Virus record (IMG/VR): IMGVR_UViG_3300023118_000002
Span: 1 to 60,247 of that record
Reading direction: 5' to 3' (one strand)
From: a virus
Length of the DNA: 60,247 nt
The position numbers and the translations under genes were made by a program. Below, piece by piece: positions 4,157 through 57,999 of this stretch. Below the pieces are notes generated by a model. It was not told the origin of the DNA. It saw nothing but the letters and a program-made list of their open reading frames with translations, and did no database searches. The stretch's first letter is position 1. Each line of letters begins with the position of its first letter.

Positions 4157-4182
4157 CATTATATGCCCTGTTTTTTGCGCGA
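4157..4182 (-). promoter_or_regulatory. Phage promoter, TCGCR-N5-AACA-N5-TATAATG family
   Basis: On the minus strand the site reads TCGCG, 5 nt, AACA, 5 nt, TATAATG. TATAAT is a perfect -10 hexamer. It stands directly upstream of the 59-aa membrane protein gene and overlaps the start of no gene. Confidence 0.75.
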
Positions 4183-4946: not shown

Positions 4947-4972
4947 CATTATAGGGGTTGTTTTTAATGCGA
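4947..4972 (-). promoter_or_regulatory. Phage promoter, TCGCA-N5-AACA-N5-TATAATG
   Basis: On the minus strand: TCGCA, TTAAA, AACA, ACCCC, TATAATG. All three conserved blocks are perfect. The site overlaps the last codons of the 41-aa zinc-knuckle gene and drives the 50-aa membrane protein gene. Confidence 0.8.
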
Positions 4973-5762: not shown

Positions 5763-5788
5763 CACTATAGGGCTTGTAATTCATGCGA
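5763..5788 (-). promoter_or_regulatory. Phage promoter, TCGCA-N5-TACA-N5-TATAGTG
   Basis: On the minus strand: TCGCA, TGAAT, TACA, AGCCC, TATAGTG, preceded by TATAGTTTT as in other copies. It drives 5464..5661 with an unusually long leader of about 95 nt, which contains a tRNA T-arm-like hairpin at 5719-5733. Confidence 0.7.
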
Positions 5789-6007: not shown

Positions 6008-6033
6008 CATTATAGGCTATGTTTTCCTTGCGA
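6008..6033 (-). promoter_or_regulatory. Phage promoter, TCGCA-N5-AACA-N5-TATAATG
   Basis: On the minus strand: TCGCA, AGGAA, AACA, TAGCC, TATAATG, preceded by TTATAGTTTT. It drives the 54-aa membrane protein gene. Confidence 0.8.
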
Positions 6034-6366: not shown

Positions 6367-6392
6367 CATTATAGGCCGTGTTTTCCTTGCGA
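6367..6392 (-). promoter_or_regulatory. Phage promoter, TCGCA-N5-AACA-N5-TATAATG
   Basis: On the minus strand: TCGCA, AGGAA, AACA, CGGCC, TATAATG, with TTATATTTTT upstream. It sits directly after the terminator at 6411..6456, a typical terminator-promoter junction. Confidence 0.8.
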
Positions 6393-6797: not shown

Positions 6798-6823
6798 CAC
6801 TATAGCACTTGTTTTTACTGCGA
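6798..6823 (-). promoter_or_regulatory. Phage promoter, TCGCA-N5-AACA-N5-TATAGTG
   Basis: On the minus strand: TCGCA, GTAAA, AACA, AGTGC, TATAGTG. It begins 2 nt after the stop of the holin-like gene, so it uncouples the small membrane-protein genes from late transcription. Confidence 0.75.
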
Positions 6824-7321: not shown

Positions 7322-8134
7322 CTAGCCTGTCTGCTTCCAAACGCCAGCCACCTTAACGAAAGGCTGTGCCATGACCCAGACACCGTTCACCTTAACATAA
7401 GGAACCGCGTATTTCCACAAGCCACCTACCTTAACCCGCATAGGTGCAATCGTCTTGACCGTGACGGGGGCTGAGTTAACTGAGTACTGACCTGCAGAAC
7501 CGTTATGCGCATACACGACGTATGTGTAAACGGTACCTGGGATCAAGCCAGTGTCCTGCCTAGAGACGTTGTTCTGGAATGAGACGTCTGTATATGCGCC
7601 AGTCATAGAAGATCCTAGCCATCTACGCAGCAAATATCCGTCAATACCTGCACCACCATTGTCGCCCGATCCACCCCAAGTAAGGGTCATGGATGTAGGC
7701 ATGACATTGCTAGCTACAGGCGTACCAGGCTGGCTCGGAGGTTTTGGAATACGAGGATAGGGACCAATAGATCCGTAATCCGTGCGGTTCCACACAGACC
7801 AGCTAAGCGTCTGTGCAACGCTATCAGCGCCTCGGTTACCTGCTCCGTCATGTCCGAGGTTTACACCCCAGGGACCGTCATACCATCGTTGAGCTCCAGC
7901 ACCTACACCTGAAGGAAGCGTACCACCGTGACCGTTACCACCAGCGCCACCTACAGTAGCTGTCTGGGCGCCGTTGTTATTATTGAACGATCCCGAAGTC
8001 CCTCGGTTAATAGCACCAACCCAGTAATAAACGGTTGAATAGTTACCACCTTGATCCTGCGAAACTAGATCAGCGTCGGTGTAGAACTCAGTAGACGGGG
8101 ATGATACGTTTACACCTACACGTCTAGTTGCCAT
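7322..8134 (-). CDS. Minor tail protein with fibronectin type III domain
   Basis: A Gly-rich N-terminal half (about residues 1-130, with GGAGGNGHGG) is followed by a fibronectin type III-like domain (residues ~133-227; PGTPVASNVMPTSMTLTW, then GYLLRRW and TYVVYAHNGS). The C-terminus has three short repeats of the form V-K-V-x-G-x-W (VKVGGLWKYAVPYVKVNGVW, then VKVAGVWK). It lies between the holin-like gene and the distal tail genes and probably forms part of the tail tip or a receptor-contacting fibre. Confidence 0.75.
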   Translation of the reverse strand: MATRRVGVNVSSPSTEFYTDADLVSQDQGGNYSTVYYWVGAINRGTSGSFNNNNGAQTATVGGAGGNGHGGTLPSGVGAGAQRWYDGPWGVNLGHDGAGNRGADSVAQTLSWSVWNRTDYGSIGPYPRIPKPPSQPGTPVASNVMPTSMTLTWGGSGDNGGAGIDGYLLRRWLGSSMTGAYTDVSFQNNVSRQDTGLIPGTVYTYVVYAHNGSAGQYSVNSAPVTVKTIAPMRVKVGGLWKYAVPYVKVNGVWVMAQPFVKVAGVWKQTG

Positions 8135-8144
8135 ACGAAGCCTC

Positions 8145-8390
8145 CTATGGCAAGGTCATGAGATAGATGTCTTTGTCAGCGCCGTCCGTATTAAGTGGGG
8201 CTGCAGTACCTGAAGTGATACCTGCAGCCGCCTGGAATGCTGCGTGACCGACTGGAATCAGTCCTTTGACCTGAGCAATGTAATCCCGGGTTCGGTTGAT
8301 CTCTTGAGCTCCCAGCTTTACCCTGCCAGGATCTCCGGTATTTGGAACGAGGGCATAGCCCGCCGCAGTTGCGTCGTCTCCAACAGCCAT
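8145..8390 (-). CDS. Small tail-tip protein (81 aa)
   Basis: A short soluble protein (PNTGDPGRVKLGAQEINRTRDYIA...) with a Gly/Ala/Pro-rich end. Its position between the Gp37-like tail protein and the FN3 protein, with 10-bp gaps, suggests a minor tail component. The middle resembles the helical N-terminal segments that trimerise actinophage fibres. No firm family. Confidence 0.6.
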   Translation of the reverse strand: MAVGDDATAAGYALVPNTGDPGRVKLGAQEINRTRDYIAQVKGLIPVGHAAFQAAAGITSGTAAPLNTDGADKDIYLMTLP

Positions 8391-8434
8391 TACTTACTCC
8401 TTTCCAAAGTAAACTACTCCTATTTTGACGTTCA

Positions 8435-9871
8435 TCAAGGCTCGTCTGCCCAATGGATTGCGTCCGGCACATCTTGCCATACGGTCTGACCTTGAGCAGC
8501 CCAAACGCCAGGGGTAATCACCAGACGCGAGGATAGAGTCGGATAGGACTTTTCGCCGGCTGCATCTTGGCTAAAGATCTGCTCAGTGACTCGAACGTTG
8601 TTAACGACACTGTCTTGGTTACGCACTTCAAGAATGTCTCCGAGGAAGTAGTCCTTGTCGTACTTATAAGATCCGAACTGCGGGATCTCGCCGTCGAATG
8701 CTGTGATGTTGTTGTACTTTTGTAGTTCTTGCAGTCCCTTAGCCGTTAGAAGCGCAGCCAAAGCCGCATCTTCAGTTGGATTGTAAGCAGTAGAAACGTT
8801 GCGAGCTGCGGTAATGTCAGTAATCTGGGCCGTAGTAAGAGTTGTACCAACTAGCGCTAGAACCGTGTTGATGTTGACTATGTCCTGAGGAAGTAGTCTT
8901 TGCAACTTACTGATCTTAGCGAGCGAATCGTTCTGGAACTGAGTCGTCGTAGTAAGACCCTGAGCCACCTTGATTGATGCCTGCTGAGCAGCAGTAACCG
9001 TGTAAACCGGAACTCCACCAGAACCCGCAGTTGTACGATCCGGGAAAGTGATGTCCGACGTAACATAAAGAACATGTCTTGAGAACCCTGCAGTTGCAGG
9101 ATCGATACTTGGCTCATAGACCTTTTGAGTGCCGTCTGGACTAAAGACGTAGGCCATGTTCTTGTACTGTTTTACAGAAGTCAAATATGACGAGTTCAGC
9201 AGGTTGTCAAGCACGGGGGCAAATACCACGGCGGGTAGTGCAGTCTGTCCTGTAGTGCGGTCATTACCAGAATATACATTGAAGAACAGCTGGGAGTTAT
9301 CCGCATTACGGGTGATTCTAAAGCCGAGGTCATACGTCTGACAAACGGATTTAAGAGCCGAGAGAACGCTTGTAATATCGATGGATACTGTGATAGACGT
9401 TGACGGCTCTGCAATAGTATCTGCAGGATATAGATTACCTGCCGCGTAGAAAGGCAACACATCAGCTGCGTCAAGAAGTCCATCGACCATTACGTTCTTA
9501 AATATCTGACGAGCTATGGCGGCGGGAAGACCGGTGATAACCCACTTGGGCTCCGCAGTCGTCCCGCCTACCATAGTATCTCGAGCTACACGGTCATCCA
9601 GTAGAATTTCAATGGATGACCCTGTCACAATAAGGACTTGAGAGCCGTCACTGTTACTCTTGTCTTCAATAGTCTCAATCGTCATGATTCGATTTGAACG
9701 GTTCATGGCTAGCAGCGTGCCCTGTGTGAGCAAGTTGCGGTTTGCGAGCGTCGAATGGATGTTCAGAGTAAGATCCCCGACATCGTTGTAACGCTCGGCC
9801 CAAACCACCGAGTCAAAGCTGTCAATGACAGCCGTTCGACGAAGAAGGCCGTCTAGGACATAGAGTTCCAA
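8435..9871 (-). CDS. Tail protein of the ReqiPepy6 Gp37-like family
   Basis: The 478-residue protein begins MELYVLDGLLRRTAVIDSFD and has the pattern SVVWAERYNDVGDLTLNI followed by IMTIETIEDKS, which is characteristic of the siphovirus ReqiPepy6 Gp37-like (tail-associated, Tal/gp27-type hub) family. It follows the distal tail protein gene directly (1-nt gap), as expected for the baseplate hub. It probably closes the tail tube and contacts the tape measure C-terminus. Confidence 0.85.
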   Translation of the reverse strand: MELYVLDGLLRRTAVIDSFDSVVWAERYNDVGDLTLNIHSTLANRNLLTQGTLLAMNRSNRIMTIETIEDKSNSDGSQVLIVTGSSIEILLDDRVARDTMVGGTTAEPKWVITGLPAAIARQIFKNVMVDGLLDAADVLPFYAAGNLYPADTIAEPSTSITVSIDITSVLSALKSVCQTYDLGFRITRNADNSQLFFNVYSGNDRTTGQTALPAVVFAPVLDNLLNSSYLTSVKQYKNMAYVFSPDGTQKVYEPSIDPATAGFSRHVLYVTSDITFPDRTTAGSGGVPVYTVTAAQQASIKVAQGLTTTTQFQNDSLAKISKLQRLLPQDIVNINTVLALVGTTLTTAQITDITAARNVSTAYNPTEDAALAALLTAKGLQELQKYNNITAFDGEIPQFGSYKYDKDYFLGDILEVRNQDSVVNNVRVTEQIFSQDAAGEKSYPTLSSRLVITPGVWAAQGQTVWQDVPDAIHWADEP

Positions 9872-13600: not shown

Positions 13601-14882
13601 CACTAATTAGAGCACCAACAGCTTGCCCGACAATATCAAATACCGCGAAGACACCCTTAAAAACTCGTGACAGCTGCTCAGCAGTTGCGGTAGTAGGAAT
13701 AAGAGCTTCTGAGAAGTCTCTCAAGAACTGAGCTACCGATTCAAATTGCTTAGCAGTTACCGGCGGGAAAATATCCCCGAAGGCATCTCGAATCAAAACA
13801 CCAATTTGCTTAACCGCATTGAAGACGTTAGCCATCGCATCAGCAACACCTTGAGCAATGATCAGCAATCCGTCAAACTGCAAACCATTAGCTACGTCAA
13901 CGCTACCGGCAGAGAACAGTCCAAACAAGGTACCGAACTGGCTAAGCACTGGCGCAAGAGCATCATGAATGCGGTCGAACATGGGACCAAGAGCGTTGAA
14001 GATATCGCGCATACCCAAGAAATAGGGGGAAGCTACATCTGCACCGATTCGAGCCAATGCCGCGTGCATGTTGGCAAGAGCACCTGTAAAGGTTTCGTTT
14101 GCCTTAGCTGCGTTAGCACCGAATGCTTCGTTCATAGCATCCGAGAACTGCTGGAAGCTAATATCACCAGTCGAGACTAGATCTCGAATCTCCTCTTCAG
14201 ATTTACCAAGGGACTTACCCAGGGTAGCTGCGGCATTGACGCCATAGGAAGACAGCTGCGTCAGCTGCTGACCCATAAGTCGGCCGTTACCAGCAATGGT
14301 TTCGAAGATTTGCGCGATGCTAGAATATCCAGAACCAGTCTGCGCAGCAACACCTGCGACCGAGCGAAGAACCGTCTCAAGTCCATTACCAGCTGTAATA
14401 CCAGAGGCACCAAACTGGGCAGCTGCAGTAGCAGCATCATCAAGACCAAACGCGGTTCCGCGCACAGCACCAAGCGCTGCGTCCATCGTTGCTTGGATAT
14501 CAAGACCAAGACCCTGGAATTGAAACTTAGCCTGCTGAAGCGCTAGAGCTCTTTTTGCACCACCATTGACAAGAGGGTCGATTAGACCTGCAGCGATGTT
14601 TTTGCCCGCGTCAAGCGCTCCTGTAACCAGATAGTTAATAGCTGATAGTCCAACAGCACCAAGGACAGAGAACTTACTCGAGATGTTCTGGAGAGCGGAT
14701 TCCATGTTCTGCAAAGAGAACCGGTTACTCGCCGCCTGAACAGCATCGATACCCGAGGTAGCGCCATCGAGCTTAAGGCTGTCTTTAAGACCTGCAATGC
14801 TCTTCGTGGTCTGATCCACGCCTTGTTCGAACTGAGCATTGTTGAACTGCATGTTTACGACGCGATCATCGATACTACTCAT
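10665..14882 (-). CDS. Tape measure protein (1405 aa)
   Basis: The largest gene. The N-terminal part has the tape-measure pattern (NAQFEQGVDQTTKSIAGLKDSL) and a segment rich in FGLDDAATAAAQFGASG. The middle, about 11950-12720 in the window, holds about five tandem hydrophobic repeats of roughly 62 residues, each with L-G-A-[IL]-P-x-x-N-L-I-x-G and a long Ala/Leu/Val stretch; these are probable membrane-inserting segments used in DNA ejection. The C-terminus is helical and polar. ATG overlaps the TGA of the upstream tail-completion gene (ATGA). It sets tail length; 1405 residues predicts a tail of roughly 200 nm by the usual 1.5 Å per residue rule. Confidence 0.92.
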   Translation of the reverse strand: MSSIDDRVVNMQFNNAQFEQGVDQTTKSIAGLKDSLKLDGATSGIDAVQAASNRFSLQNMESALQNISSKFSVLGAVGLSAINYLVTGALDAGKNIAAGLIDPLVNGGAKRALALQQAKFQFQGLGLDIQATMDAALGAVRGTAFGLDDAATAAAQFGASGITAGNGLETVLRSVAGVAAQTGSGYSSIAQIFETIAGNGRLMGQQLTQLSSYGVNAAATLGKSLGKSEEEIRDLVSTGDISFQQFSDAMNEAFGANAAKANETFTGALANMHAALARIGADVASPYFLGMRDIFNALGPMFDRIHDALAPVLSQFGTLFGLFSAGSVDVANGLQFDGLLIIAQGVADAMANVFNAVKQIGVLIRDAFGDIFPPVTAKQFESVAQFLRDFSEALIPTTATAEQLSRVFKGVFAVFDIVGQAVGALISAFAQLFGYTAEGSDAFLEIAARVGDFLVKLDDAIRKGTVFQTFFKGLAAIIAVPIGILKTFFGIIGDGIETLTHLKEGGDNVGNFVDKVKDRFQGLFELAAFFQGFWNGVVTVAKAVWGFLQPIFEGIGEGISTAVTKVKAALSGLKFDDAIKAINTGLFAGFLAALNGFFGNLGGILQGNKLSFVTKFNLIFGSLRTNLKALEMNTNAKTLTQIAIAVALLAASAVALSLVDPAKLGLALAAIGGLMKELLLMFEAFSKLGGQKGVFTALAIASAMQVIAGAILVLAIAIAILGAIPLPNLIQGVLALVVVLGALVGALNLMAKIGPNILAAAGAIAIMAPALALLAGVIAILGALPVNNLIQGMLALVIVLAALVGTLQLLGDMGPKVLFGAGAIAIIAPALAILTGAVAALGALPLVNLIAGMAGLVVMLAAITGAVLLLGFAGPQALLGAVAISAIALSLVPLIGAVALLGALPIPNIISGIVALTAVLVVLTGIILLLGFTGPVALLGAAAIVAVALAIAILAPALAILAAIPWEGIGKVMTVLSAGLGILAVMGILLIPASVGFLLLGAAILLIGTGVFLAAEGVGLLAVGIGLLVGIGGAGILLFTQMLTAFMQQLPALGAAIGEAIVSMVVVIGQKAPDLVNAFVALLLAMLDAVQQVVPKIVEVATTIIISLVNALVILLPALVTAGLQIISGILKGIASNIGEIAKQGINIIVNFINGVSSKLGDIINAGINLIISFVNGLANGIRDNRSKMVAAGLNLADAITGGMSTGLVNGINTVVNAAKRIANAIPAAIKKVLGINSPSKVTTGLGEWTGEGAALGIENKYDRVEAAAGGIGDSAIAGLKNSLAGAGDILSDSMDSTPTIRPVLDLSAIQAGAKNIPGMLPTPSLSLDTSNDVATSVSLQEQARNAVLTLEANNPSPDSKSVTFIQNNNSPKALSTSEVYRQTQNQLSTLKGELGVVDQSGSPK

Positions 14883-15271
14883 GCTGATTGCACCGCCTTC
14901 CATACAGCATCTGAGATGTCATCAAACACGCCTTTAGTGGCAGGGTTGATGAAGTCTACACCTTGAACATAACCGCCTGTTCCGGTTCCATGACCGTACT
15001 GAAGCATGATGACGATCGGAGTTCCTTGTCGATCCTTATTACTGTTGAGCCATGAGATGGAGTAACCGCCGCCAGAGTTTTCTACTGTGTAGTACCAGCT
15101 GGCGGCGGTTAGACCTGTTTCGGAAGGTGTTGCGTTGGCAAGAGCATCTACGCCCATTTGACCGTAGAAGTTCAGCACATCGAAGATAGAGCCTGCTTTC
15201 ATTTCCTTAAGGAAACGGTCAAGGTTGTTAGTGTCGCCACTACTCCTAATCGATATGATGCCCACATTCAC
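14879..15271 (-). CDS. Tail-completion/minor tail protein (HK97 gp10-like)
   Basis: The 130-residue protein has TGLTAASWYYTV and LQYGHGTGTGGYV, a motif pair seen in tail-completion proteins of the HK97 gp10 type (Y-G-H-G-T-x-x-G-G-Y-V). Such proteins normally lie between connectors and tail tube; here the gene lies between a fibre gene and the tape measure. Its stop overlaps the tape-measure start. Confidence 0.75.
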   Translation of the reverse strand: MNVGIISIRSSGDTNNLDRFLKEMKAGSIFDVLNFYGQMGVDALANATPSETGLTAASWYYTVENSGGGYSISWLNSNKDRQGTPIVIMLQYGHGTGTGGYVQGVDFINPATKGVFDDISDAVWKAVQSA

Positions 15272-15286
15272 CTCCCATTTTGATTA

Positions 15287-15505
15287 TTACTGCTCGGGTT
15301 CAGTCGGAACCAATTCCATGCGAGCTTCGATCGAGTCCGTTGCGATTACCTGACGGTCCATATCGCTCGTGGTCGAAAAGAAGTAAGTCAGACCGATGTG
15401 AGTTCCGTCCACGAGGACACCATGCGAGAGCAGCTCTGCCGCCACCTCAGGTGATCCGTCGTTGTCAATTCGGATGTACTTTGTTTTAAGACGCCAAAGA
15501 TCCAT
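15287..15505 (-). CDS. Hypothetical protein in the tail operon (72 aa)
   Basis: A soluble acidic protein (MDLWRLKTKYIRIDNDGSPE...) ending PTEPEQ. It starts at the TAATG overlap with the stop of the fibre gene and precedes the tail-completion gene by 15 bp. I see no known motif; position suggests a tail component or a chaperone. Confidence 0.6.
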   Translation of the reverse strand: MDLWRLKTKYIRIDNDGSPEVAAELLSHGVLVDGTHIGLTYFFSTTSDMDRQVIATDSIEARMELVPTEPEQ

Positions 15506-17214
15506 TAATACCCCTTAATTAAGAATGACGAATAGTCCACGCCATCCAAAGATACCCATGTTGGTGTACCTGAGTTTGGTAGGATGTTTCCGCCGTTTTG
15601 TACGTCCAGCCGCATTCCGACGTCAGTGCCAATAGATGCAAAGATTTCGTTATACCGCGGACGAATTTGAGATGATATACCCAGAGCCATATGGTTACCC
15701 ATAATACCTCCGGTCCAAAGACCAAACAAGAAAACTTGTCGATCGGGAGTTACCGAGTAACCTGGATTACGCCAATTACTACCGTAGCCAACCCAACTGT
15801 TAGCTCCATTAATTCCAATGAATGGTATTTTATTTGGATCAACTAGAGAGACTTGACTGAGAACCACGGTTTGTCCAACAGCCAAGGACTGACTCATGTT
15901 AAACTGTTTGGTTCCAGTCAAAGGAGTAATCGAGTTCGTTCCGAACCTAAAAGCACGTACAGAAACACCCGGACTGACTACAAGATGATGTGAAGCACCT
16001 GGATAGTTAAAAGGCATATCCGTCAAAGTGCCCATTACTGCGTTGGCCGTGTAGGCCGCGGTAGCAACGATCATTCCCTCAAATATCACTACACCATCAG
16101 GGTCAATTGTATATCCTGGTGGGTGTGCAGTTGGGGCGCCGGAATATCGAGCGCCCGTGTAAGCAGCCCATCCCGATCCAAGATATGGAACAAGTGACTT
16201 GAACGTAGCAAGGCCAAGATCCACCGCACTTTTCGCTCTGAACCTGATATTGTTTAGGCTAAACCAGGTAGCTACAGTTCCACCATTGTAACGAATATAA
16301 CCGTCAGTACCTACAAAGATTGTAACAAGCGAGTTCCCGTTAAGGATATTGTACTCTTGTTCGTAGGATGGTCGCATTCCAACAGGAAGCTGAGCGATGA
16401 TTGATCCAGCCAGCGGCGCAGAATTCAAAGTCTGAATAAGACCATGAAGTCGGACTACGCCATATCGACTCATCGTGGTATGTATTTGACCAGCAAATGA
16501 GCTTAGTTTACCGTTAGCTAAATAAGCACCGACTTGATATCTTGGAGCCCCGTATGAATCATTGAGTTCATTGATGTCATTATATAGTGCCCAGCCGTTT
16601 TGCAGATCAATGGGAATCTGCTTAGCATACTTAGCAAATGCTGGATATGCCCGATCAACAAACCAAGTGGCCGAACCATCTTGACCGATGCGACTGACGA
16701 TGACAACTACACCAGGTTCGATCTTATAGTCATGCGGATCGATAAATGCAGTCTTAGTTCCACTATCGCCCTGATTAGCATCCAAGATAACTGGAGCGGT
16801 ATTACCTGAGCCGCTCCAAGTTGGATCGATAATACCCGAAAATGTCTGACGGGCGGCAAACAAACCAAGGGGGGTAACTGCACGGGACGCATCAAGCGCT
16901 GATACAGTTTCAGCTTGAGTTGCAAGCTCGACCAAACCACGACGATCAGTAGTGGCCGTAAGAGCCGCGAGACCCGACGGAGTTACTGCTCGAGTGGTAT
17001 CGCTACCAGCAATAGTTTCAACCGAAGTTGCAAGCTCTACAAGACCTGAAACGTCAACAGTAGCAGCGATGGGATAAACAATACCCGCATCGTACGTACT
17101 ACCATCATGGCGAGTAAGGATCAATCGACCGGAACTGTTAACCGTTCCAGAAACGATGGTGCCGTTCTCAATGGCGAGCATACGCTCTTTAGTGAATACC
17201 TGAACGGTTGCCAC
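15505..17214 (-). CDS. Tail fibre-like protein with internal repeats (569 aa)
   Basis: Residues ~55-110 contain two copies of the tail-fibre repeat G-L-V-E-L-A-T-x-x-E-T-x-x-x-x-D-x-x-R-A-V-T-P, widely found in phage fibres. The rest contains several modules with the pattern W-x-x-Y-x-x-x-x-x-x-Y then G-Y-T-x-D-P-D-G-V-V-x-F-x-G (about residues 210, 350 and 480), ending in beta-rich sequence. It is probably a trimeric fibre with a receptor-binding end. The position, between tail-tube paralogues and the tape measure, is unusual for a fibre and suggests that it attaches along or near the tube. Confidence 0.75.
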   Translation of the reverse strand: MATVQVFTKERMLAIENGTIVSGTVNSSGRLILTRHDGSTYDAGIVYPIAATVDVSGLVELATSVETIAGSDTTRAVTPSGLAALTATTDRRGLVELATQAETVSALDASRAVTPLGLFAARQTFSGIIDPTWSGSGNTAPVILDANQGDSGTKTAFIDPHDYKIEPGVVVIVSRIGQDGSATWFVDRAYPAFAKYAKQIPIDLQNGWALYNDINELNDSYGAPRYQVGAYLANGKLSSFAGQIHTTMSRYGVVRLHGLIQTLNSAPLAGSIIAQLPVGMRPSYEQEYNILNGNSLVTIFVGTDGYIRYNGGTVATWFSLNNIRFRAKSAVDLGLATFKSLVPYLGSGWAAYTGARYSGAPTAHPPGYTIDPDGVVIFEGMIVATAAYTANAVMGTLTDMPFNYPGASHHLVVSPGVSVRAFRFGTNSITPLTGTKQFNMSQSLAVGQTVVLSQVSLVDPNKIPFIGINGANSWVGYGSNWRNPGYSVTPDRQVFLFGLWTGGIMGNHMALGISSQIRPRYNEIFASIGTDVGMRLDVQNGGNILPNSGTPTWVSLDGVDYSSFLIKGY

Positions 17215-19232: not shown

Positions 19233-20108
19233 CTAGACGAAGTCGTAGAACCAGGTGTTGTCGGTCAGATCCGGGAAGGAGTAACCGTTTGCGGGCTCTG
19301 CACGAACCAGCGTGTCCTTCGTAAGGACCTTAGCGCCCGGCGTGTACAGCACACCAGTCTCGTCGTTGTAGTAGTTGACACCAACAACGGTCGGGATGGT
19401 AAGCGTGTGCGTACCAGACACGTAAGCCGGCTGGGTCGGAGTAACTTCGTTAACCGTACCGCTGAAGAACGCAAGAACTGCAGCGGGAGACGGAAGGTAA
19501 GCATCCTGCCCAACAGAACCGTAAATTGCCTGCTCGAGCGCTGCAAGACCAGCCGGGTCGACCTTCGTCGAATCGATGATGATGATTGCAGACGGCTTGA
19601 GACCGGGAACAGGAATCGGCGTAGTCGTGAACTTCCACGAGAACGTGATCGCGTCAGGCGAGTCGTTGACGGTCGCGTAAGCCTTCTCGGAAGGAGCAGC
19701 AAGTGCACCCCACACAAGATGGATCTTGTAACCGTAGTCCTGGCCCTCAACATCGTTACCGACGAGCGTCTGGTACGAAAGACCAAACGTACGGCGAGAC
19801 TGCTGACCGACGGAAACACCCGGGCTCGGAGTTGCGGTGCCATCGCACTGGGCAAACTCGTCGGGGTATGTGTAGGCCTCGATCGTGCCGGCGAACTCTT
19901 CCGCTGAGACCAGGCTCAGGTAGTTGATGTTGTCGGCGTACTTTTTGGTGACTTCAGCGCCAGAAGGCGACTCGGTAACAGTCGTAAGACCGTTCCAAGC
20001 TACACCCTCAACGTATGCACCAGTATTGTCCGGGAGGTACAGAACCCCATGACTAACACCGGTCTCGTACTCGCGCTCACCAGTCTGATCCCAAAGGAGC
20101 TGAGACAT
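19233..20108 (-). CDS. Major tail protein with C-terminal Ig-like domain (291 aa)
   Basis: Tube core at residues 1-220 (QLLWDQTGEREYETGVSHGV, VAWNGLTTVTESPSG, GTIEAYTYPDEFAQCDGT, LSYQTLVGNDVEGQ), then an Ig-like or Big-type domain at ~225-291 (PAYVSGTHTLTIPTVVGVNY, ANGYSFP). This C-terminal domain is closely similar to the C-terminus of the capsid protein here (PTFVNGTGVVTIPAVTGV). It probably decorates the outside of the tail. It lies directly downstream of the tail terminator gene, the standard place for the main tube protein. Confidence 0.85.
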   Translation of the reverse strand: MSQLLWDQTGEREYETGVSHGVLYLPDNTGAYVEGVAWNGLTTVTESPSGAEVTKKYADNINYLSLVSAEEFAGTIEAYTYPDEFAQCDGTATPSPGVSVGQQSRRTFGLSYQTLVGNDVEGQDYGYKIHLVWGALAAPSEKAYATVNDSPDAITFSWKFTTTPIPVPGLKPSAIIIIDSTKVDPAGLAALEQAIYGSVGQDAYLPSPAAVLAFFSGTVNEVTPTQPAYVSGTHTLTIPTVVGVNYYNDETGVLYTPGAKVLTKDTLVRAEPANGYSFPDLTDNTWFYDFV

Positions 20109-20120
20109 ATAACTTCCTTT

Positions 20121-24948: not shown

Positions 24949-25923
24949 TTATTTGACGACATACTTCCCATTCTTAAGGATAAGTTTAATGACCTCGTGA
25001 CCGGTGTCAATTGACTTAACGCCTTTAATGGTGTTGTATCCGCGATTTACAATTTCAGGATGCGCAAGTAAATAACGGCCGCCGTATTTGACAGTTGCGT
25101 AACCAGCAACTAAAATTCCTGCACCGATTAAATCCTTCTTAAGCGAGTATTCTTTCTTTGGGGCCAAACGGTTGTTATAATCTTTCCGAATAGCACTAGC
25201 TTTGGTAAAAGAATTCTGGCGGTTAGCACGATCGATCTTTGCTTGGTTTGCCGATTCAATTTCAGCTTTATGCCGACCCCAGTGCATACCAAGAACACCA
25301 TGATGAGCCAAAGAATCATCTTCAGGATCAAACTGATTCAGAGCTCGCTCGATGTAATTAATAACCTCTGCTGGATCTAATTCATCGTGTTTAATTGAAG
25401 AGACAGGAATGTTAAGTTCCATAGATGTTAATCCACCCCAAATATCATCAGCTGGACTAAGAATCTCAGTTGTCTTAAAACCCATTTTTTCATAAATATG
25501 CAAAGCGTCCGGTGATTCACCGGGAACTTCAAGCGTTAACTTAGAAATGCCTTTGTCGCGCGCATAATCAATAACACCTGAAACTGCAGCCGAAGCATAC
25601 CCATTCCCACGATGAGCTTTCTTAACGCCCAACCAAACAAGATTTAGAGAATCAGGAGTATCTTGATTGAAAGCGGCTTCTCCAACTTTTTCACCCTTGG
25701 CGTTTTTAAGAGTGAAGCTATGATACTGCTTAACTCTTTCCGCATAACCAGGACTTAGTTTAGAAAGAAGCTTGGGTATGCCAGATGTTGCATCTCGAGA
25801 CACCACAAGCGTTCCGCCACCTTTTAGCTTCTTGGTAAAGGTTGGTCGAGGTTCTTCTTTACGATCGCCCCAGTGCATACCAAGAACACCGTAGTGAGCA
25901 AGGGTCTTATTCAAATATGACAT
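24949..25923 (-). CDS. GNAT-type acetyltransferase flanked by HYGVLGMHWG tags (324 aa)
   Basis: Two copies of the tag occur: TLAHYGVLGMHWG at residues ~7-19 and SLAHHGVLGMHWG at ~204-216. Between them is a GNAT acetyltransferase core: LVWLGVKKAHRGNGYASAAV (the acetyl-CoA-binding R/Q-x-x-G-x-G/A motif as RGNGYA) and KLTLEVPGESPDALHIYEKMGF (motif B). After the second tag a basic linker, a short hydrophobic stretch (LIGAGILVAGYATV) and a terminal domain follow. It lies between terminase and portal genes. I infer a virion-carried enzyme that acetylates a host or phage target early in infection. The second tag may allow cleavage into two products. Confidence 0.8.
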   Translation of the reverse strand: MSYLNKTLAHYGVLGMHWGDRKEEPRPTFTKKLKGGGTLVVSRDATSGIPKLLSKLSPGYAERVKQYHSFTLKNAKGEKVGEAAFNQDTPDSLNLVWLGVKKAHRGNGYASAAVSGVIDYARDKGISKLTLEVPGESPDALHIYEKMGFKTTEILSPADDIWGGLTSMELNIPVSSIKHDELDPAEVINYIERALNQFDPEDDSLAHHGVLGMHWGRHKAEIESANQAKIDRANRQNSFTKASAIRKDYNNRLAPKKEYSLKKDLIGAGILVAGYATVKYGGRYLLAHPEIVNRGYNTIKGVKSIDTGHEVIKLILKNGKYVVK

Positions 25924-27721: not shown

Positions 27722-28141
27722 CTAAAGGTTCTTCATGATTACCATTGCCGCTTTCACACCATACTTGTTGAGGATGGTGGCGCCCCTAGCTACGGCTTTT
27801 TGGCCGACAGGGGTCCGCAAAAGAGCTGCGGCCGCCGTAACAGTAGTTCCAACACCGATAAGAACTTTAACCGCATCATTGCCTTTTTTGATTTTGGCAA
27901 TAGCGGTCTTGTCAGTCTTCAGCTTGGAATATTGCTGTTCAAGCTGCAAACGCTCATTAAGTTTTCTAAGATCTGCGTTCGAAAGGTTGCGAGAGCCCTG
28001 TCGATTGAGCTCACGTGCCTGTGCGTGATCCGGGTGCGGGGGAGCTTTAATTTTTTTGCTTCGTGAGATATCATCCTTACGACGACCCCAGTGCATTCCT
28101 AGAACACCGTAGTGCGAAAGAGTCTTTCCAAATGTCGGCAT
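27722..28141 (-). CDS. Small tagged virion protein (HYGVLGMHWG, 139 aa)
   Basis: The protein begins MPTFGKTLSHYGVLGMHWGR, continues with a basic region and NLSNADLRKLNERLQLEQQY, a block that I recognise from tagged phage proteins of Firmicutes, and ends with a hydrophobic helix (VLIGVGTTVTAAAALL) and a basic tail. It therefore has a tag, a helical linker and a membrane-active segment, which suits a virion-delivered or internal protein. It lies directly upstream of terL. Confidence 0.75.
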   Translation of the reverse strand: MPTFGKTLSHYGVLGMHWGRRKDDISRSKKIKAPPHPDHAQARELNRQGSRNLSNADLRKLNERLQLEQQYSKLKTDKTAIAKIKKGNDAVKVLIGVGTTVTAAAALLRTPVGQKAVARGATILNKYGVKAAMVIMKNL

Positions 28142-33614: not shown

Positions 33615-33651
33615 GTGGTATAGACCCCTGGAGTTTCCAAAGACATACCAC
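33615..33651 (-). other. Hairpin in the leader of the lysis operon
   Basis: Arms 33615-33621 and 33645-33651 (GTGGTAT/ATACCAC) pair over 7 bp and enclose a second hairpin TGGA-GTT-TCCA at 33629-33639. The element stands about 20 nt upstream of the EF-hand gene start, so it may control translation or end the upstream transcript. Confidence 0.4.
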
Positions 33652-33745
33652 AGAATTTCCCCCCGGGGATTTTTTGAGGACAGCGGCGATGCAGAGAGGG
33701 GGCCCGAAATTTTAGACCCCCCCTCCCCTACACCTTATAAACTCC
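33652..33745. other. G/C-run intergenic region, candidate packaging or transcription-control site
   Basis: This region has no gene and contains unusual homopolymer runs: TTCCCCCCGGGGATTTTTT, then GAGGGGGCCCG, an AT core (AAATTTTAG) and ACCCCCCCTCCCC. The AGGGGG and CCCCCCT runs face each other. Such sequence can be a cos end region in actinophages, but the site lies about 3 kb upstream of terS, so I cannot decide between cos and a terminator. Confidence 0.3.
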
Positions 33746-34006
33746 CTAGTAGTCTGAAGGCGTAACTTTTTTGTAAATCCCGAAAGGATTTTCTTTTATA
33801 AGTTCGTTAATACCTTCTAGAATTGCTGATTCCTGATCAGCATCAGAGAGATCATTACTTGTGATCACATACCTAGCCAGTAGGCCCGTCGAGTAGTAGC
33901 CCAGGTATTCATCATGGGCCAGCCATTCACTGTACTGCGTGAAAGGGTTCCATGGGTTGTCGGTTGTCGTGATCATCACTGCATGATTGTCAGTTACATT
34001 AGTCAT
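33746..34006 (-). CDS. Conserved phage protein downstream of the RNA polymerase gene (86 aa)
   Basis: The block MITTTDNPWNPFTQYSEWLAHDEYLGYYSTGLLAR and the end IKENPFGIYKKV match a conserved phage family that I remember as small proteins next to head or polymerase genes in Firmicutes phages (pattern T-x-D-N-P-x-[ND]-P-F-T-Q). It has no known function. The start is either ATG at 34006 or the internal ATG before ITTTDN. Confidence 0.7.
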   Translation of the reverse strand: MTNVTDNHAVMITTTDNPWNPFTQYSEWLAHDEYLGYYSTGLLARYVITSNDLSDADQESAILEGINELIKENPFGIYKKVTPSDY

Positions 34007-34030: not shown

Positions 34031-36766
34031 CTACTTGTCAAGTGCTGAGTACAGTGTACTGGTAGAGATACCTAGTCTAGATGCAATCTCCGCAACTGTA
34101 TAGTTGCCTGATGCTAACATGGACTGGGCTAATGCAAGGCTAGCATTGTTAACCTTGGGCCTATCTCTTGGTGTGGCGAGGGATCTAAGATCTTCAACAT
34201 CTGTATTGTCAATGATCTGCTTAAGCTTACTGGCGGTAATGGCACCGGATTGAATGGCGTTCCATTCTTCATCAGTAATCTTAATCTTAATCTTACCAGC
34301 ACCAACCCTAGTACGTGCCTCAGTAAGGGCCATACCATTGACCTTCTTGAGGTCTGCCTTATCAATACCGGGGTTCGCTTCAACCTTAGCCCTTACAATA
34401 GACTGGGCCAACAACTGGGCTTGTCTTTCGAGGGGGGCATTCTTTAGAGCAATGTTTAGCTTAGCATTTAGAGACTTAACCTCATTACTGTAAACACTCT
34501 TAGCAGACTGGCTGTATGGAATGTTCTTAATAGTGAGGGACTCTTTTCTAGCTTCATTAGCAAGAGCCTTTAGACTATTAGCATGATCAGCATAGATGCG
34601 TTCAATTAGGGTACCACCATTACCAGACACAAGGGTATGTGCGTCATTGGTATAGGCGCCTTTCTTAACCTTCTCACGAGAGATGGTAACTTCACCCTTT
34701 TTGTTTGTATAGGTTTCATCAGCAATTACATAATGCTTGTTACCCTTAGCATCAGTCTCCCAATGAGAACCCTTTGGTACGTACATCTTCTCACCAGTAG
34801 CTGCATCAATAGGACCACCAAGGTGCACAGGCCGAGGCTTGCGAGCATCAATGTTTTTATCAGATGTAGTTCTAGAGATCAGTGTAGAGGCACCTTTTTT
34901 AGCACCATTCTGATACTTGCGCTTTAGCTCGTTAATGTTGTTGTCAAGAGCAGAAGCCTTGTAATCTAAGTTGTGTTTCTCAGCATCGATAACAACCATC
35001 GAATGACGAACAGCTCGAGCAATCTCACTTTCATGAGCACCCTTAATAGTCATGTCCGTAATTAGATTAGAAACATCACCCATAAGCTGTTGCTTAAGAC
35101 CGCCTGGATTCTTAGCTCCAGCAAGACCCTTAGTAGAATCTTTCGGAAGCTTGTACAACTCTTTAGGATCAAAGTTCTTAAGTCCACTAAGAGCGGCGGA
35201 AGTCTTAACTTTTCCGTCGTTATTAGGAATTACAAGAACTGTATCACCATCAAAGTCTGCACCTGACAGACGTTCTGCTACCTTGGCATTGATTCCAACT
35301 GCGTCCCTAGCATTCAAAGTAATTGAACGGCGAGCTTCCTTATTACTGTTGTTTACAGTAAGTTGTGGAATCTCAAAGATGCCACCATGAGGGTGACGAA
35401 CTAGAGTGACCACATCTCCATCGTGATACTTAGGAGCAAAGATTTCCGTTTCACTAAGACTGTTAATTGGAAGGATTACATGGTTTGCAGTTCTCGGAAG
35501 ACCAGTTGCTTGAAGTTTCACAGCTGAAGAATCAGCCTCGTCTGCATAAGTCTCGAGCAGCTTGCGCTTAACTCCAGGGTTTGTCAGAGCAAGGATGTCT
35601 TCTAGATCCGCACGCTTTGAGTTCTGCGTAAGATCCAACTGAGCTTTAGCAAGGGCCGGCGTCTGCTTCGAAAGGAACTGTGACGAGAAGTTATTAGACC
35701 AGGTGTACCAATCACCTTCCTCATTCACAATGTTCAGAGGCGAACGCTCAACCTTACCTGTCTTAGGATCTGTGTAACCCTTAGGCCGAGTAATAGAACC
35801 AAACGGATTCGATTCGTCTCCAGTCTGAGGCTTCAAAGCGTCTAGCTTGTTACCGGTATCTTTTTTGTTGGTATTGAACAGAATGTCAACGCCCTTAGGC
35901 AGATCATCCTTGTACATTGCCATACCCTTGATGTAGTGCGTACCATCAACAGGGACACGAACCTGAGCATAGTTTGCATTGCCCAAAGAAATGTCAGCGA
36001 CACCCGGACGAAGGTACATCACACCATCAGAAGCAGCACCACCGTCAGGACCATACTTAACCTCAACACGCTTCGAACTGATGTTAACAAGAGGGCCCAA
36101 ATCGGCGGCTTTCTTATTAGTATCAGGATCGATGTATTCAGCGATGCTATGGATTTTATCCTTGTTGTGATAAACCTCTTTAGCAGTTGTAGATTCGTGT
36201 ACTAAGACCTTCAAAGAAGTCTTCTTACCGGTACCTACCTGAGTTACGTCGGTGTAACGAATAACGTAACCCTGGTCCTTAAGCATAGCAATGCCCGTCT
36301 TAAGAGTCGTGTCACTGATTCCCATGTGGTTCTCAGTACCCTTACCGACATCGACATACTTGTACTTGTCAACGTTGTCTTTAAGGATGTTAGCAACAAC
36401 CTGGTTACGATTAGCACGCTCCTGAACAATGGGGTCCATAAGAGCCCGAACAGAAGATTCGTTCATACCCAACTGCTTACCGATTGCGCTGTTGCTCATA
36501 CCCTTATCTTTAAGAGCCATGATACGACGAGTTTTCTCGGCACGAACATCGTTAGAAGAGATAGAGCGGCGAGCACGGAGATCAGCTGTAGAACTAAAAC
36601 CCAGTCCCTCAGCAATCTTAACCTCACTCAAACCCTTCTTCTTAAGATCTTCATAGGCTGCTAGAAAGCTGACGCCACTTTGGTAAGGGTCTTCACCTGA
36701 ACCCCAAGGATAGCGTCCTGAGTGATGCGGAGTACCATAGTGAGCGAGCGTTGATTCGTCATTCAC
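34031..36766 (-). CDS. Putative virion RNA polymerase (DFDGD, two-barrel/YonO-like type, 911 aa)
   Basis: The motif RLSGADFDGDTVLVIP (about residue 515) is the metal-binding DxDGD loop of double-psi beta-barrel RNA polymerases. The N-terminus, from GTG after AAGGAGACCTTCG, reads MNDESTLAHYGTPHHSGRYP, with the LAHYG site found in other proposed capsid cargo. Two helix-turn-helix-like repeats follow (KGLSEVKIAEGLGFSS; KGMSNSAIGKQLGMNESS), and a third ends the protein (YTVAEIASRLGISTSTLYSAL). The family is found, to my knowledge, in many phages of gut Firmicutes. I infer that the enzyme is packaged and transcribes early genes at infection. Catalytic activity is predicted, not shown. Confidence 0.8.
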   Translation of the reverse strand: MNDESTLAHYGTPHHSGRYPWGSGEDPYQSGVSFLAAYEDLKKKGLSEVKIAEGLGFSSTADLRARRSISSNDVRAEKTRRIMALKDKGMSNSAIGKQLGMNESSVRALMDPIVQERANRNQVVANILKDNVDKYKYVDVGKGTENHMGISDTTLKTGIAMLKDQGYVIRYTDVTQVGTGKKTSLKVLVHESTTAKEVYHNKDKIHSIAEYIDPDTNKKAADLGPLVNISSKRVEVKYGPDGGAASDGVMYLRPGVADISLGNANYAQVRVPVDGTHYIKGMAMYKDDLPKGVDILFNTNKKDTGNKLDALKPQTGDESNPFGSITRPKGYTDPKTGKVERSPLNIVNEEGDWYTWSNNFSSQFLSKQTPALAKAQLDLTQNSKRADLEDILALTNPGVKRKLLETYADEADSSAVKLQATGLPRTANHVILPINSLSETEIFAPKYHDGDVVTLVRHPHGGIFEIPQLTVNNSNKEARRSITLNARDAVGINAKVAERLSGADFDGDTVLVIPNNDGKVKTSAALSGLKNFDPKELYKLPKDSTKGLAGAKNPGGLKQQLMGDVSNLITDMTIKGAHESEIARAVRHSMVVIDAEKHNLDYKASALDNNINELKRKYQNGAKKGASTLISRTTSDKNIDARKPRPVHLGGPIDAATGEKMYVPKGSHWETDAKGNKHYVIADETYTNKKGEVTISREKVKKGAYTNDAHTLVSGNGGTLIERIYADHANSLKALANEARKESLTIKNIPYSQSAKSVYSNEVKSLNAKLNIALKNAPLERQAQLLAQSIVRAKVEANPGIDKADLKKVNGMALTEARTRVGAGKIKIKITDEEWNAIQSGAITASKLKQIIDNTDVEDLRSLATPRDRPKVNNASLALAQSMLASGNYTVAEIASRLGISTSTLYSALDK

Positions 36767-37343
36767 CGAAGGTCTCCTTATCGATCTCAGTAATGCGGCG
36801 GTCAAAGGTTTTGATTGAATCGATGATGTGCATCAAGTCATCCAGATCCGGAACATAGATCTCAACTGCATCGCCCTTGTAGATACGAAGTTCGATGTCG
36901 ATGTCGGCCGGGTTGTGACCATACTCGAGACAAAAGATGCAGGCATAGATTTCAAGCTGGCGCATGTAAGTACGAGTAGTACCAGTCTTGAGATCATGAA
37001 TGCGAAGCATCCAACGTTCAGTCTTGGGATCGTAACGGAATGAAATGGTGTCAGCTGTACCGAAACAATTTGGAGAGTAGTACAAAGGCTGCTCTGGCTG
37101 CATTTTGAAACCGATACCGTCATTGACGTAAAGGTTCATAGTCTTACGAACGTCAGGCATTTTAACCCGAAGCGCGATCAGTTCTGCAGCGAGAGCGTGC
37201 TTACGATCTCCGAGCCTAGCTGCCTGAGCAGTGTAGACTCTTTTGTCCATAGCTTCTTCATCATAGTTAGTCCAGCTCGGGTTGCTGGGTGCCATGAGGT
37301 TAGCGTGCTTACCTGCCAACTCGTAGTGCGGATTGAAGCGCAT
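36759..37343 (-). CDS. PD-(D/E)XK nuclease, Cas4/RecB-like (194 aa)
   Basis: CFGTADTISFRYDPKTERWMLRIHDLKTG and QLEIYACIFCLEYG form the core of a RecB/Cas4-type exonuclease (G-x-x-D, then I-x-D-x-K, then Q-x-x-x-Y). No Fe-S cysteine set is visible. It probably works with the VRR-NUC nuclease upstream in DNA processing or recombination. The ATG lies after GGAGGTTCTTG. It overlaps the polymerase start by 8 nt. Confidence 0.8.
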   Translation of the reverse strand: MRFNPHYELAGKHANLMAPSNPSWTNYDEEAMDKRVYTAQAARLGDRKHALAAELIALRVKMPDVRKTMNLYVNDGIGFKMQPEQPLYYSPNCFGTADTISFRYDPKTERWMLRIHDLKTGTTRTYMRQLEIYACIFCLEYGHNPADIDIELRIYKGDAVEIYVPDLDDLMHIIDSIKTFDRRITEIDKETFGE

Positions 37344-37614
37344 CAAGAACCTCCTCTTTGTTTTCTGGATAGATAAACGCGGAGAATGACATCTGGTTCA
37401 TCTGATCAACAAACCAATCCTGGTTAGGCTGATGAGGTGCGTCTTCAGACTTTTTAACTTCTAATGCTGCCCAGCGATTCTTCCATAGAATCAGAAGGTC
37501 GGGAATTCCTTGCTGGTAGCCGGAGTCGTTCTTTTGGATTATGCATCCCGGGAACAGTTCACGCAGCTCTTTAATCAAGTCTGCCTGAAAGTCCCTTTCT
37601 AGTTTAGAGGTCAT
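37309..37614 (-). CDS. VRR-NUC-type nuclease (about 101 aa)
   Basis: The protein has ERDFQADLIKELRELFPGC, QKNDSGYQQGIPDLLILWKNR and WAALEVKKSED, the order of the VRR-NUC domain (G-I-P-D-L, then E-V-K). These are minimal Mg-dependent nucleases of the PD-(D/E)XK type, often seen with phage SNF2-like helicases, as here (39260..40498). It is the first gene after the repeat region and is driven by the promoter at 37681..37706. Confidence 0.85.
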   Translation of the reverse strand: MTSKLERDFQADLIKELRELFPGCIIQKNDSGYQQGIPDLLILWKNRWAALEVKKSEDAPHQPNQDWFVDQMNQMSFSAFIYPENKEEVLDALQSALRVGR

Positions 37615-37680
37615 CATTTTCTCCTTTAGACAAAAAGGGAAGAATTGCAGAGCCAAAAGCTACTGATATTCTATCTCCTT

Positions 37681-37706
37681 CATTATAACAGATGTTCTTG
37701 GTGCGA
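37681..37706 (-). promoter_or_regulatory. Phage promoter, TCGCA-N5-AACA-N5-TATAATG
   Basis: On the minus strand: TCGCA, CCAAG, AACA, TCTGT, TATAATG. It stands 67 nt upstream of the VRR-NUC/Cas4-like/RNA polymerase operon. A copy of the repeat GTATGCTATAAAGTCG lies directly upstream (37709-37724), in position for an activator or repressor. Confidence 0.8.
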
Positions 37707-37708
37707 TA

Positions 37709-38000
37709 GTATGCTATAAAGTCGAGGAAGCTAGACAAAAAAATTATCACATGTAAAAAACACAAATCTCAAATATTTTGGGCAAAAAACTTTTCTGTAG
37801 GAAATTTGATTTTATAGCATGCTATAATTCTAAAATTCTCGCGTAAAGAGTTTATAGCAAAATATTTGTGTTTTTGTGCAGAGGATTTCCCGGAATTCCG
37901 GGGTTTTTAGGGGGTGTCTCAAAAAAACCGTTTCTAAGACACCCCCAAAACCCTCGACTTTATAGCATACACCTCGGCCTACTTGTATGCTATAAAGTCG
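37709..38000. other. AT-rich repeat region: candidate replication origin or master operator region
   Basis: This gene-free region (37615-38008 in all) holds three exact copies of GTATGCTATAAAGTCG: 37709-37724, 37985-38000, and inverted at 37955-37970; the last two form a 16-bp inverted repeat with a 14-nt loop. A 16-bp palindrome TTATAGCATGCTATAA lies at 37812-37827, and TTTATAGC recurs at about 37852. A 10-bp hairpin (37910-37919/37937-37946) and the palindrome CCCGGAATTCCGGG lie between. The AT-rich stretches contrast with the neighbouring genes. Iterons plus AT-rich DNA next to a promoter suit an origin. Confidence 0.6.
37910..37946. terminator. Bidirectional hairpin in the repeat region
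   Basis: Arms 37910-37919 (GGGGGTGTCT) and 37937-37946 form a perfect 10-bp stem; outside it TTTTT and AAAA also pair. It lies between 38009..38530 and the promoter, so it probably ends transcription from the upstream early genes. Confidence 0.6.
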
Positions 38001-38008
38001 GGAAAAAA

Positions 38009-57973: not shown

Positions 57974-57999
57974 CGTTATAGTGCATGTTATTTGTGCGA
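57974..57999 (-). promoter_or_regulatory. Phage promoter, TCGCA-N5-AACA-N5-TATAACG
   Basis: On the minus strand: TCGCA, CAAAT, AACA, TGCAC, TATAACG. It starts 5 nt before the stop of the lipoprotein gene and drives 57548..57925. It is the only copy of the family in this part of the genome. Confidence 0.75.

Follow-up and report, generated by a model that had tools for sequence, protein, structure and literature searches.

The window analysed here, a 60,247-nucleotide stretch of viral DNA (IMG/VR virus record IMGVR_UViG_3300023118_000002, positions 1 to 60,247), carries at 34031..36766 on its minus strand a genuine open reading frame whose likeliest start is the GTG at 36766, with AAGGAG just upstream, giving a product of 911 residues. 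The PHROG 4291 profile ('RNA-dependent RNA polymerase') matches this product over its full length (E 0, 1189 bits, residues 15-923). The gene and the elements recognised within it are:

34031..36766, minus strand: predicted two-barrel single-chain RNA polymerase (PHROG 4291), 911 residues, GTG start; from profile and fold
36695..36748, minus strand: N-terminal tag LAHYGTPHHSGRYPWGSG, residues 7-24, near-invariant in the polymerase family and disordered in the model
36440..36538, minus strand: N-terminal helix-turn-helix, Sigma70_r4_2-like, residues ~77-109; from Pfam
35864..35971, minus strand: probable barrel-B segment YAQVR...HYIKGMAMY...PKGVDILFNTNK with the invariant K280; from conservation
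35225..35272, minus strand: metal-binding loop of barrel A, RLSGADFDGDTVLVIP, residues 499-514; from conservation and hhalign against P23-45 gp64
34040..34105, minus strand: C-terminal helix-turn-helix, HTH_23, residues ~888-909; from Pfam

The reading frame, the RLSGADFDGDTVLVIP loop and LAHYG near the N-terminus (residues 7-11) are all present as the original prediction had them, and the helix-turn-helix elements it placed at both ends are matched by Pfam Sigma70_r4_2 and HTH_23. SGADFDGD is invariant across 62 aligned sequences, and K280 (within KGMAxY) and RxPHxGxFEIP...VNN are likewise invariant in the polymerase alignment; assignment of the segment running from YAQVR to PKGVDILFNTNK to barrel B is an inference. 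By tblastn, homologues occur in 250 of 50,697 phage records, 249 of them full-length (the gene is rare, at about 0.5% of phage records), with a further 248 loci in IMG/VR and 130 in bacterial genomes. Most of the homologues in the phage records are labelled helix-turn-helix DNA-binding protein; 'putative RNA polymerase' and RNA-dependent RNA polymerase are used for some.

An AlphaFold model built on an alignment of 59 relatives has a mean pLDDT of 81, with residues 1-25, which hold the tag, and 210-222 as the only stretches of any length below 50. Searched against the PDB with Foldseek, the model retrieves QDE-1 at the top (E 9e-10), followed by P74-26 gp62 (8f5m, 2e-7), P23-45 gp64 (8f72, 6e-7) and RDR2 (7e-7), and a viral library also brings up P23-45; TM-scores to solved structures are low overall, about 0.3. 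In hhalign the region ILP...GERV...RxP...GADFDGD aligns with its counterpart in P23-45 gp64 (GADYDGD), with no significant full-length sequence similarity between the two proteins, while PDB sequence searches with the protein and with its profile return helix-turn-helix or chance matches only. The two-barrel class first proposed from the DFDGD loop is borne out by the model, by its matches to QDE-1, P74-26 gp62 and P23-45 gp64 and by the invariance of the DxDGD loop, and the conclusion that the gene encodes a single-chain two-barrel RNA polymerase is supported at the level of a predicted fold, RNA synthesis being inferred. Structure prediction had been put forward as the check for two double-psi barrels: the fold does match single-chain two-barrel polymerases, but the two barrels have been neither inspected nor superposed residue by residue.

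The kinship with YonO and the crAss-like polymerases that had been proposed along with the loop cannot be demonstrated in sequence for YonO and is only weak in fold for the crAss enzyme. SPbeta YonO is a single-chain, prophage-encoded two-barrel polymerase similar in size to the window enzyme, but it shows no significant sequence similarity to it (hhalign yields only a 19-residue chance-level alignment, and nothing beyond the catalytic loop) and it transcribes late genes; membership of the YonO group was rejected. SPbeta lacks the tag in a profile search, and the 50 kb of SPbeta searched lack the promoter motif described below. Gp66 of crAss-like phage phi14:2 is a virion-packaged two-barrel enzyme, the mode proposed for the window polymerase, but its solved chain, at 2,166 residues, far exceeds the window protein in length, and the model matches it weakly (6vr4, Foldseek rank 40, E 0.03); with neither the fold nor the size of gp66, crAss-type membership was also rejected. 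Thermus phage P23-45 has two RNA polymerases of the single-chain two-barrel class with a DFDGD/DYDGD loop: gp64, a non-virion enzyme and among the nearest solved folds, and gp96, which is a virion protein fused to the tape measure. The window polymerase differs from them in being a separate gene without tape-measure fusion, in its promoters and in its tagged N-terminus. Two-barrel virion polymerases as such are already known from phi14:2 and P23-45 (PMC10770324).

The polymerase gene is embedded in a conserved neighbourhood:

37681..37706, minus strand: promoter-like site upstream of the VRR-Nuc/Cas4/polymerase operon; from matrix scan
37309..37617, minus strand: VRR-type nuclease, first gene of the operon; from a weak VRR_NUC match, PHROG 93 endonuclease and VRR-Nuc in relatives
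36759..37343, minus strand: Cas4/RecB-type exonuclease of the same operon; from PHROG 3953 (E 3e-62) and synteny
33746..34006, minus strand: 86-residue reading frame (PHROG 4303), a conserved neighbour directly downstream of the polymerase
33640..33740, minus strand: G/C-rich, cos-like intergenic sequence just downstream of the polymerase; from sequence and the position of relatives' genome ends

As predicted, two nuclease genes, of VRR and Cas4/RecB type, lie directly upstream of the polymerase in one operon behind a conserved promoter-like site. The order VRR-Nuc, Cas4-type exonuclease, polymerase, small reading frame is common to the window, Microbacterium phage Camille and Streptomyces phage HotFries, and actinophage proteins of PHROG 4291, full-length homologues at 37-53% identity in the phage records listed, keep the same order. 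In Camille and HotFries no other large gene lies between the polymerase and the right genome end; because the stretch at 33640..33740 matches this position, we infer that it is cos. Downstream the window carries genes for lysis, terminase and portal, for a capsid-maturation protease, which the Camille annotation gives as a protease-capsid fusion, and for the tail. The 86-residue reading frame is kept after the polymerase in all annotated relatives examined, including Lactococcus phage 1706 (orf76, 31% identity, E 4e-12), and its product could be a partner of the polymerase.

A matrix built from five sites detects eight near-identical promoter-like sites, every one of them on the minus (coding) strand of the window, with scores of 23-56 bits; no other place in the window exceeds 6.9 bits, and 20 simulated (Markov) sequences reach 14.6 at most. 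Besides the operon site, the scan locates:

4157..4182, minus strand: promoter-like site
4947..4972, minus strand: promoter-like site
5763..5788, minus strand: promoter-like site
6008..6033, minus strand: promoter-like site
6367..6392, minus strand: promoter-like site
6798..6823, minus strand: promoter-like site
57974..57999, minus strand: promoter-like site

These seven fall in the small-gene region, six at 4.1-6.8 kb and one at 58.0 kb, and none of the eight precedes the structural genes. The window form reads TCGC-R-N5-WACA-N5-TATARYG and the overall motif CGC-N7-ACA-N5-nnTnRTG.

The N-terminal tag connects the polymerase to proteins encoded beside the terminase and portal genes, two of which carry it in the window:

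27722..28141, minus strand: 139-residue protein with N-terminal DUF7211 tag LSHYGVLGMHWG, just upstream of the terminase large subunit
24949..25923, minus strand: GNAT-acetyltransferase-like protein with N-terminal and internal DUF7211 tags, between terminase and portal

Both start with LSHYGVLGMHWG or LAHYGVLGMHWG, which belong to Pfam DUF7211 (PF23847), a 25-residue peptide with no function assigned in Pfam. The polymerase tag resembles DUF7211 in its first half and then reads SGRYPWGSG where DUF7211 has GMKWG. On the N-termini of related polymerases the DUF7211 profile gives weak partial matches (more than 12, over profile positions ~5-13, E 3e-4 to 8e-3) that lie below the curated cut-off, a resemblance and not membership. 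Above the cut-off, DUF7211 is found in 53 of 61 polymerase-bearing records versus 0 of 18 lacking the polymerase, and in relatives as many as nine such proteins are encoded close to terminase and portal, with the tag almost always N-terminal. A tblastn search of the 50,697 phage records with the tag returns 243 records and 939 places; the genera and numbers are close to those found with the polymerase, although the 939 may include the polymerases' own tags; the Firmicute version of the tag gives the same picture of host genera. Internal DUF7211 tags at about residue 350 were also seen in two larger proteins, Gordonia phage Fazel gp13 (annotated RNA ligase; 7513-9186 of record L327) and ReqiPoco6 gp015 (14111-15727 of record L328), and the acetyltransferase-like domain of the window, flanked by two tags, is itself a candidate injected enzyme.

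Evidence bearing on the virion comes from Lactococcus phage 1706, whose orf75 is the homologue of the polymerase in both position and sequence (38% identity, full length, tag and SGADFDGD present). The depositors labelled orf75 and the tagged orf7 'structural protein', whereas genes named there by similarity read 'putative ...'; RefSeq later relabelled orf75 'RNA-dependent RNA polymerase'. The structural list of Garneau et al. 2008 for this phage reportedly derives from virion mass spectrometry. Two small replication-region proteins of 1706, orf62 and orf71 (15153-15431 and 19759-20112 of record L331), were also deposited as 'structural protein' and are candidates for further packaged early proteins. 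Virion packaging, as put forward in the original prediction, has only indirect support, from the shared tag and the 1706 label; the polymerase is probably packaged, but this has not been shown for the window phage and the basis of the 1706 label is unverified.

The tag may nevertheless have another role, for example as a head-assembly contact or a processing site, with the polymerase bound only transiently to the procapsid. The absence of a known function for DUF7211 and the divergent second half of the polymerase tag leave room for this, but the N-terminal position of the tag on unrelated proteins, the acetyltransferase included, and the structural-protein labels in 1706 speak against it, and it seems to us on the unlikely side.

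The main alternative to a packaged enzyme is a non-virion polymerase that is made by host RNA polymerase after infection and transcribes a later class of genes, in the manner of YonO, a late-gene polymerase (PMC5467207), or P23-45 gp64, a non-virion enzyme (PMC10770324). The gene does sit at the end of the replication module, with replication genes as non-virion polymerases do, gp64 is among the nearest folds, and the actinophage sites include a TATAAT that could serve host RNA polymerase. Against this are the deposition of the 1706 homologue as a structural protein, the likeness between its tag and the one on proteins encoded next to terminase and portal, and the restriction of the promoter family to small-gene and operon regions and not to positions before structural genes, and we judge this alternative unlikely. 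A packaged polymerase remains our preferred reading, with the reservation that polymerase, promoter and tag could all mark a single co-inherited phage lineage.

The promoter-like sites recur beyond the window. The 26-base pattern, searched with up to two mismatches, is present in about 20-21 of the 23 polymerase-bearing records examined, a set that includes the window, and lies almost always on one, coding, strand, and the reversed pattern is found 0-1 times in the same records. When only the TCGC and ACA anchors are required, outside long reading frames, there are 72 sense and 3 antisense sites. Conservation runs on downstream into GAGACCCC / TATARTGAGACCCC, positions -10 to -5 being better kept than -12 and -11. 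Lactococcus phage P078 and Faecalibacterium phage oengus lack the actinophage form of the 26-base pattern; de novo discovery returns TTTTACATACCCTATAATGARAGG for P078 and TTTTACATACnCTATAGTAGAAAGAAGG for 1706, which share the architecture ACA-N5-TATARTR, and ACGCGAAAAATACAGCCTCCTTTATGG for oengus, that is CGC-N7-ACA-N5-CTTTATG. One oengus run gave terminator-like repeats and a rerun gave the promoter, and discovery in HotFries, with too few gaps, yielded no promoter motif. Bacterial genomes, mostly of Clostridia, contributed 80 polymerase loci, in which CGC-N7-ACA-N5-nnTnATG has 97 sense and 0 antisense occurrences, peaking about 920 bases upstream of the polymerase reading frame, which is before its operon. 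Judged from sequence alone, this family of putative promoters is real.

Host RNA polymerase, acting by itself or helped by a phage activator, could use such sites, which would then accompany the phage polymerase through shared ancestry only. The actinophage copies look like a -10 TATAAT box and mostly keep TAnnnT, and the polymerase-bearing phages share overall synteny. The family does not fit the host sigma70/sigmaA pattern, however, of a TAnnnT -10 box in which T-12, A-11 and T-7 dominate and a -35 box 17 bp upstream, CGC and ACA standing at fixed spacings unlike those of -35 and -10 elements and conservation reaching the downstream GAGACCCC. Moreover the architecture is kept across host phyla while the -10-like hexamer varies between hosts (TTTTAT, TGTTAT or CTTTAT); in the bacterial-genome loci it is mostly TTTTAT, and TAnnnT is kept in 14 of 90 unique sites. 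Since bacterial sigma70-type factors rely most on T-12, A-11 and T-7, the Firmicute sites are poor sigma promoters, and the absence of a sigma-type -11 A from most Firmicute copies argues against host sigma. We consider use by host polymerase, with or without an activator, distinctly unlikely.

In a search run from the promoter side, IMG/VR was scanned with the promoter pattern alone and the contigs hit were then checked for PHROG 4291. The polymerase is present on 31 of 33 motif-matching contigs of at least 40 kb, on 18 of 23 contigs matching a second pattern without the TCGC element, and on all 21 matching the Firmicute form, while the original motif reversed, used as negative control, finds it on 0 of 14 contigs of at least 30 kb. 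The Firmicute figure is partly linkage, most of those sites lying before the polymerase operon itself. The suggestion that the promoter family is the target of the polymerase gains strong support from this co-occurrence across phyla with its clean negative control, although direct recognition is inferred and the target remains a putative one. Polymerase, promoter and tag accompany one another in hundreds of phages of Gram-positive hosts. The argument is confounded chiefly by the possibility that all three were inherited together, to which the best reply is that the hexamer has drifted from the sigma consensus while the architecture stayed constant.

Finally, a true RNA-dependent RNA polymerase, as the PHROG 4291 and RefSeq names have it and as the best Foldseek matches, Neurospora QDE-1 and plant RDR2 (E about 1e-9 and 1e-6, but eukaryotic RNA-silencing polymerases), might be read to imply, is highly improbable, and a purely RNA-dependent enzyme was rejected, given that these are dsDNA phages with no RNA-silencing partner seen, that the polymerase is coupled to a DNA promoter family and that QDE-1 copies DNA too (PMC2950127).

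We consider it reasonably likely that the polymerase is packaged in the head by means of its tag and initiates early transcription from promoters of its own; activity, promoter recognition, packaging in the window phage and timing are all inferred. A DNA-dependent single-chain two-barrel polymerase would be loaded into the head through its N-terminal LAHYG tag, a DUF7211 variant, and would enter the cell together with the phage DNA. Early transcription would then start at a dedicated promoter, TCGC-N7-ACA-N5-TATARTG in actinophages and CGC-N7-ACA-N5-TTTTATG in Firmicute phages, whose upstream elements would probably be read by the terminal helix-turn-helix domains. One such promoter would drive the polymerase's own operon (VRR-Nuc, Cas4, polymerase and the putative 86-residue partner), so that new copies are made and packaged. 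If the operon depends on its own product, the first polymerase must come from outside when infection begins; the tag and the 1706 label are consistent with such a supply. A wider proposal, possible but not one we would yet lean on, is that DUF7211 serves a large group of Gram-positive siphophages as a general tag for loading the head, comparable to the capsid-targeting sequence of T4, and packs several enzymes, with the packed polymerase firing a cross-phyla promoter for host-independent early transcription; the cargo would comprise the polymerase, the acetyltransferase, the RNA-ligase-like protein, a phosphoesterase and membrane proteins.

The polymerase label is not new, the QDE-1 class being implied by existing labels, whereas the promoter, tag and virion assignments appear to be. 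In the sources consulted the PHROG 4291 proteins are known as annotation only: the open-access literature searched yielded no account of a promoter, tag or virion role for the family, and the Arthrobacter and Gordonia comparative papers make no mention of RNA polymerase or mass spectrometry. If correct, the proposal would give a large group of Actinobacteria and Firmicutes phages a polymerase, a ~30 bp promoter and a delivery tag, turning annotations such as 'helix-turn-helix protein' and 'RNA-dependent RNA polymerase' into a transcription system; it would also yield a tool, a single-chain RNA polymerase that is both compact and promoter-specific, and would open the function of DUF7211 to testing.

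Two further features of the operon region were observed. The actinophage polymerase-operon promoter forms a subclass ending TATAATAGAAGG, in which A replaces G in 31 of 35 candidate operon sites; these sites lie ~0.8-0.9 kb upstream of the polymerase (records L005, L006, L010, L014, L018 and others), the remaining sites end TATARTGAGACCCC, and the subclass is possibly a second promoter class. In the window, inverted repeats TTTATAGCATRC are clustered at 37706-38005, with four exact copies (0.01 expected in the window) no more than 290 bases upstream of the operon promoter, and this cluster looks like an operator or replication-origin array.
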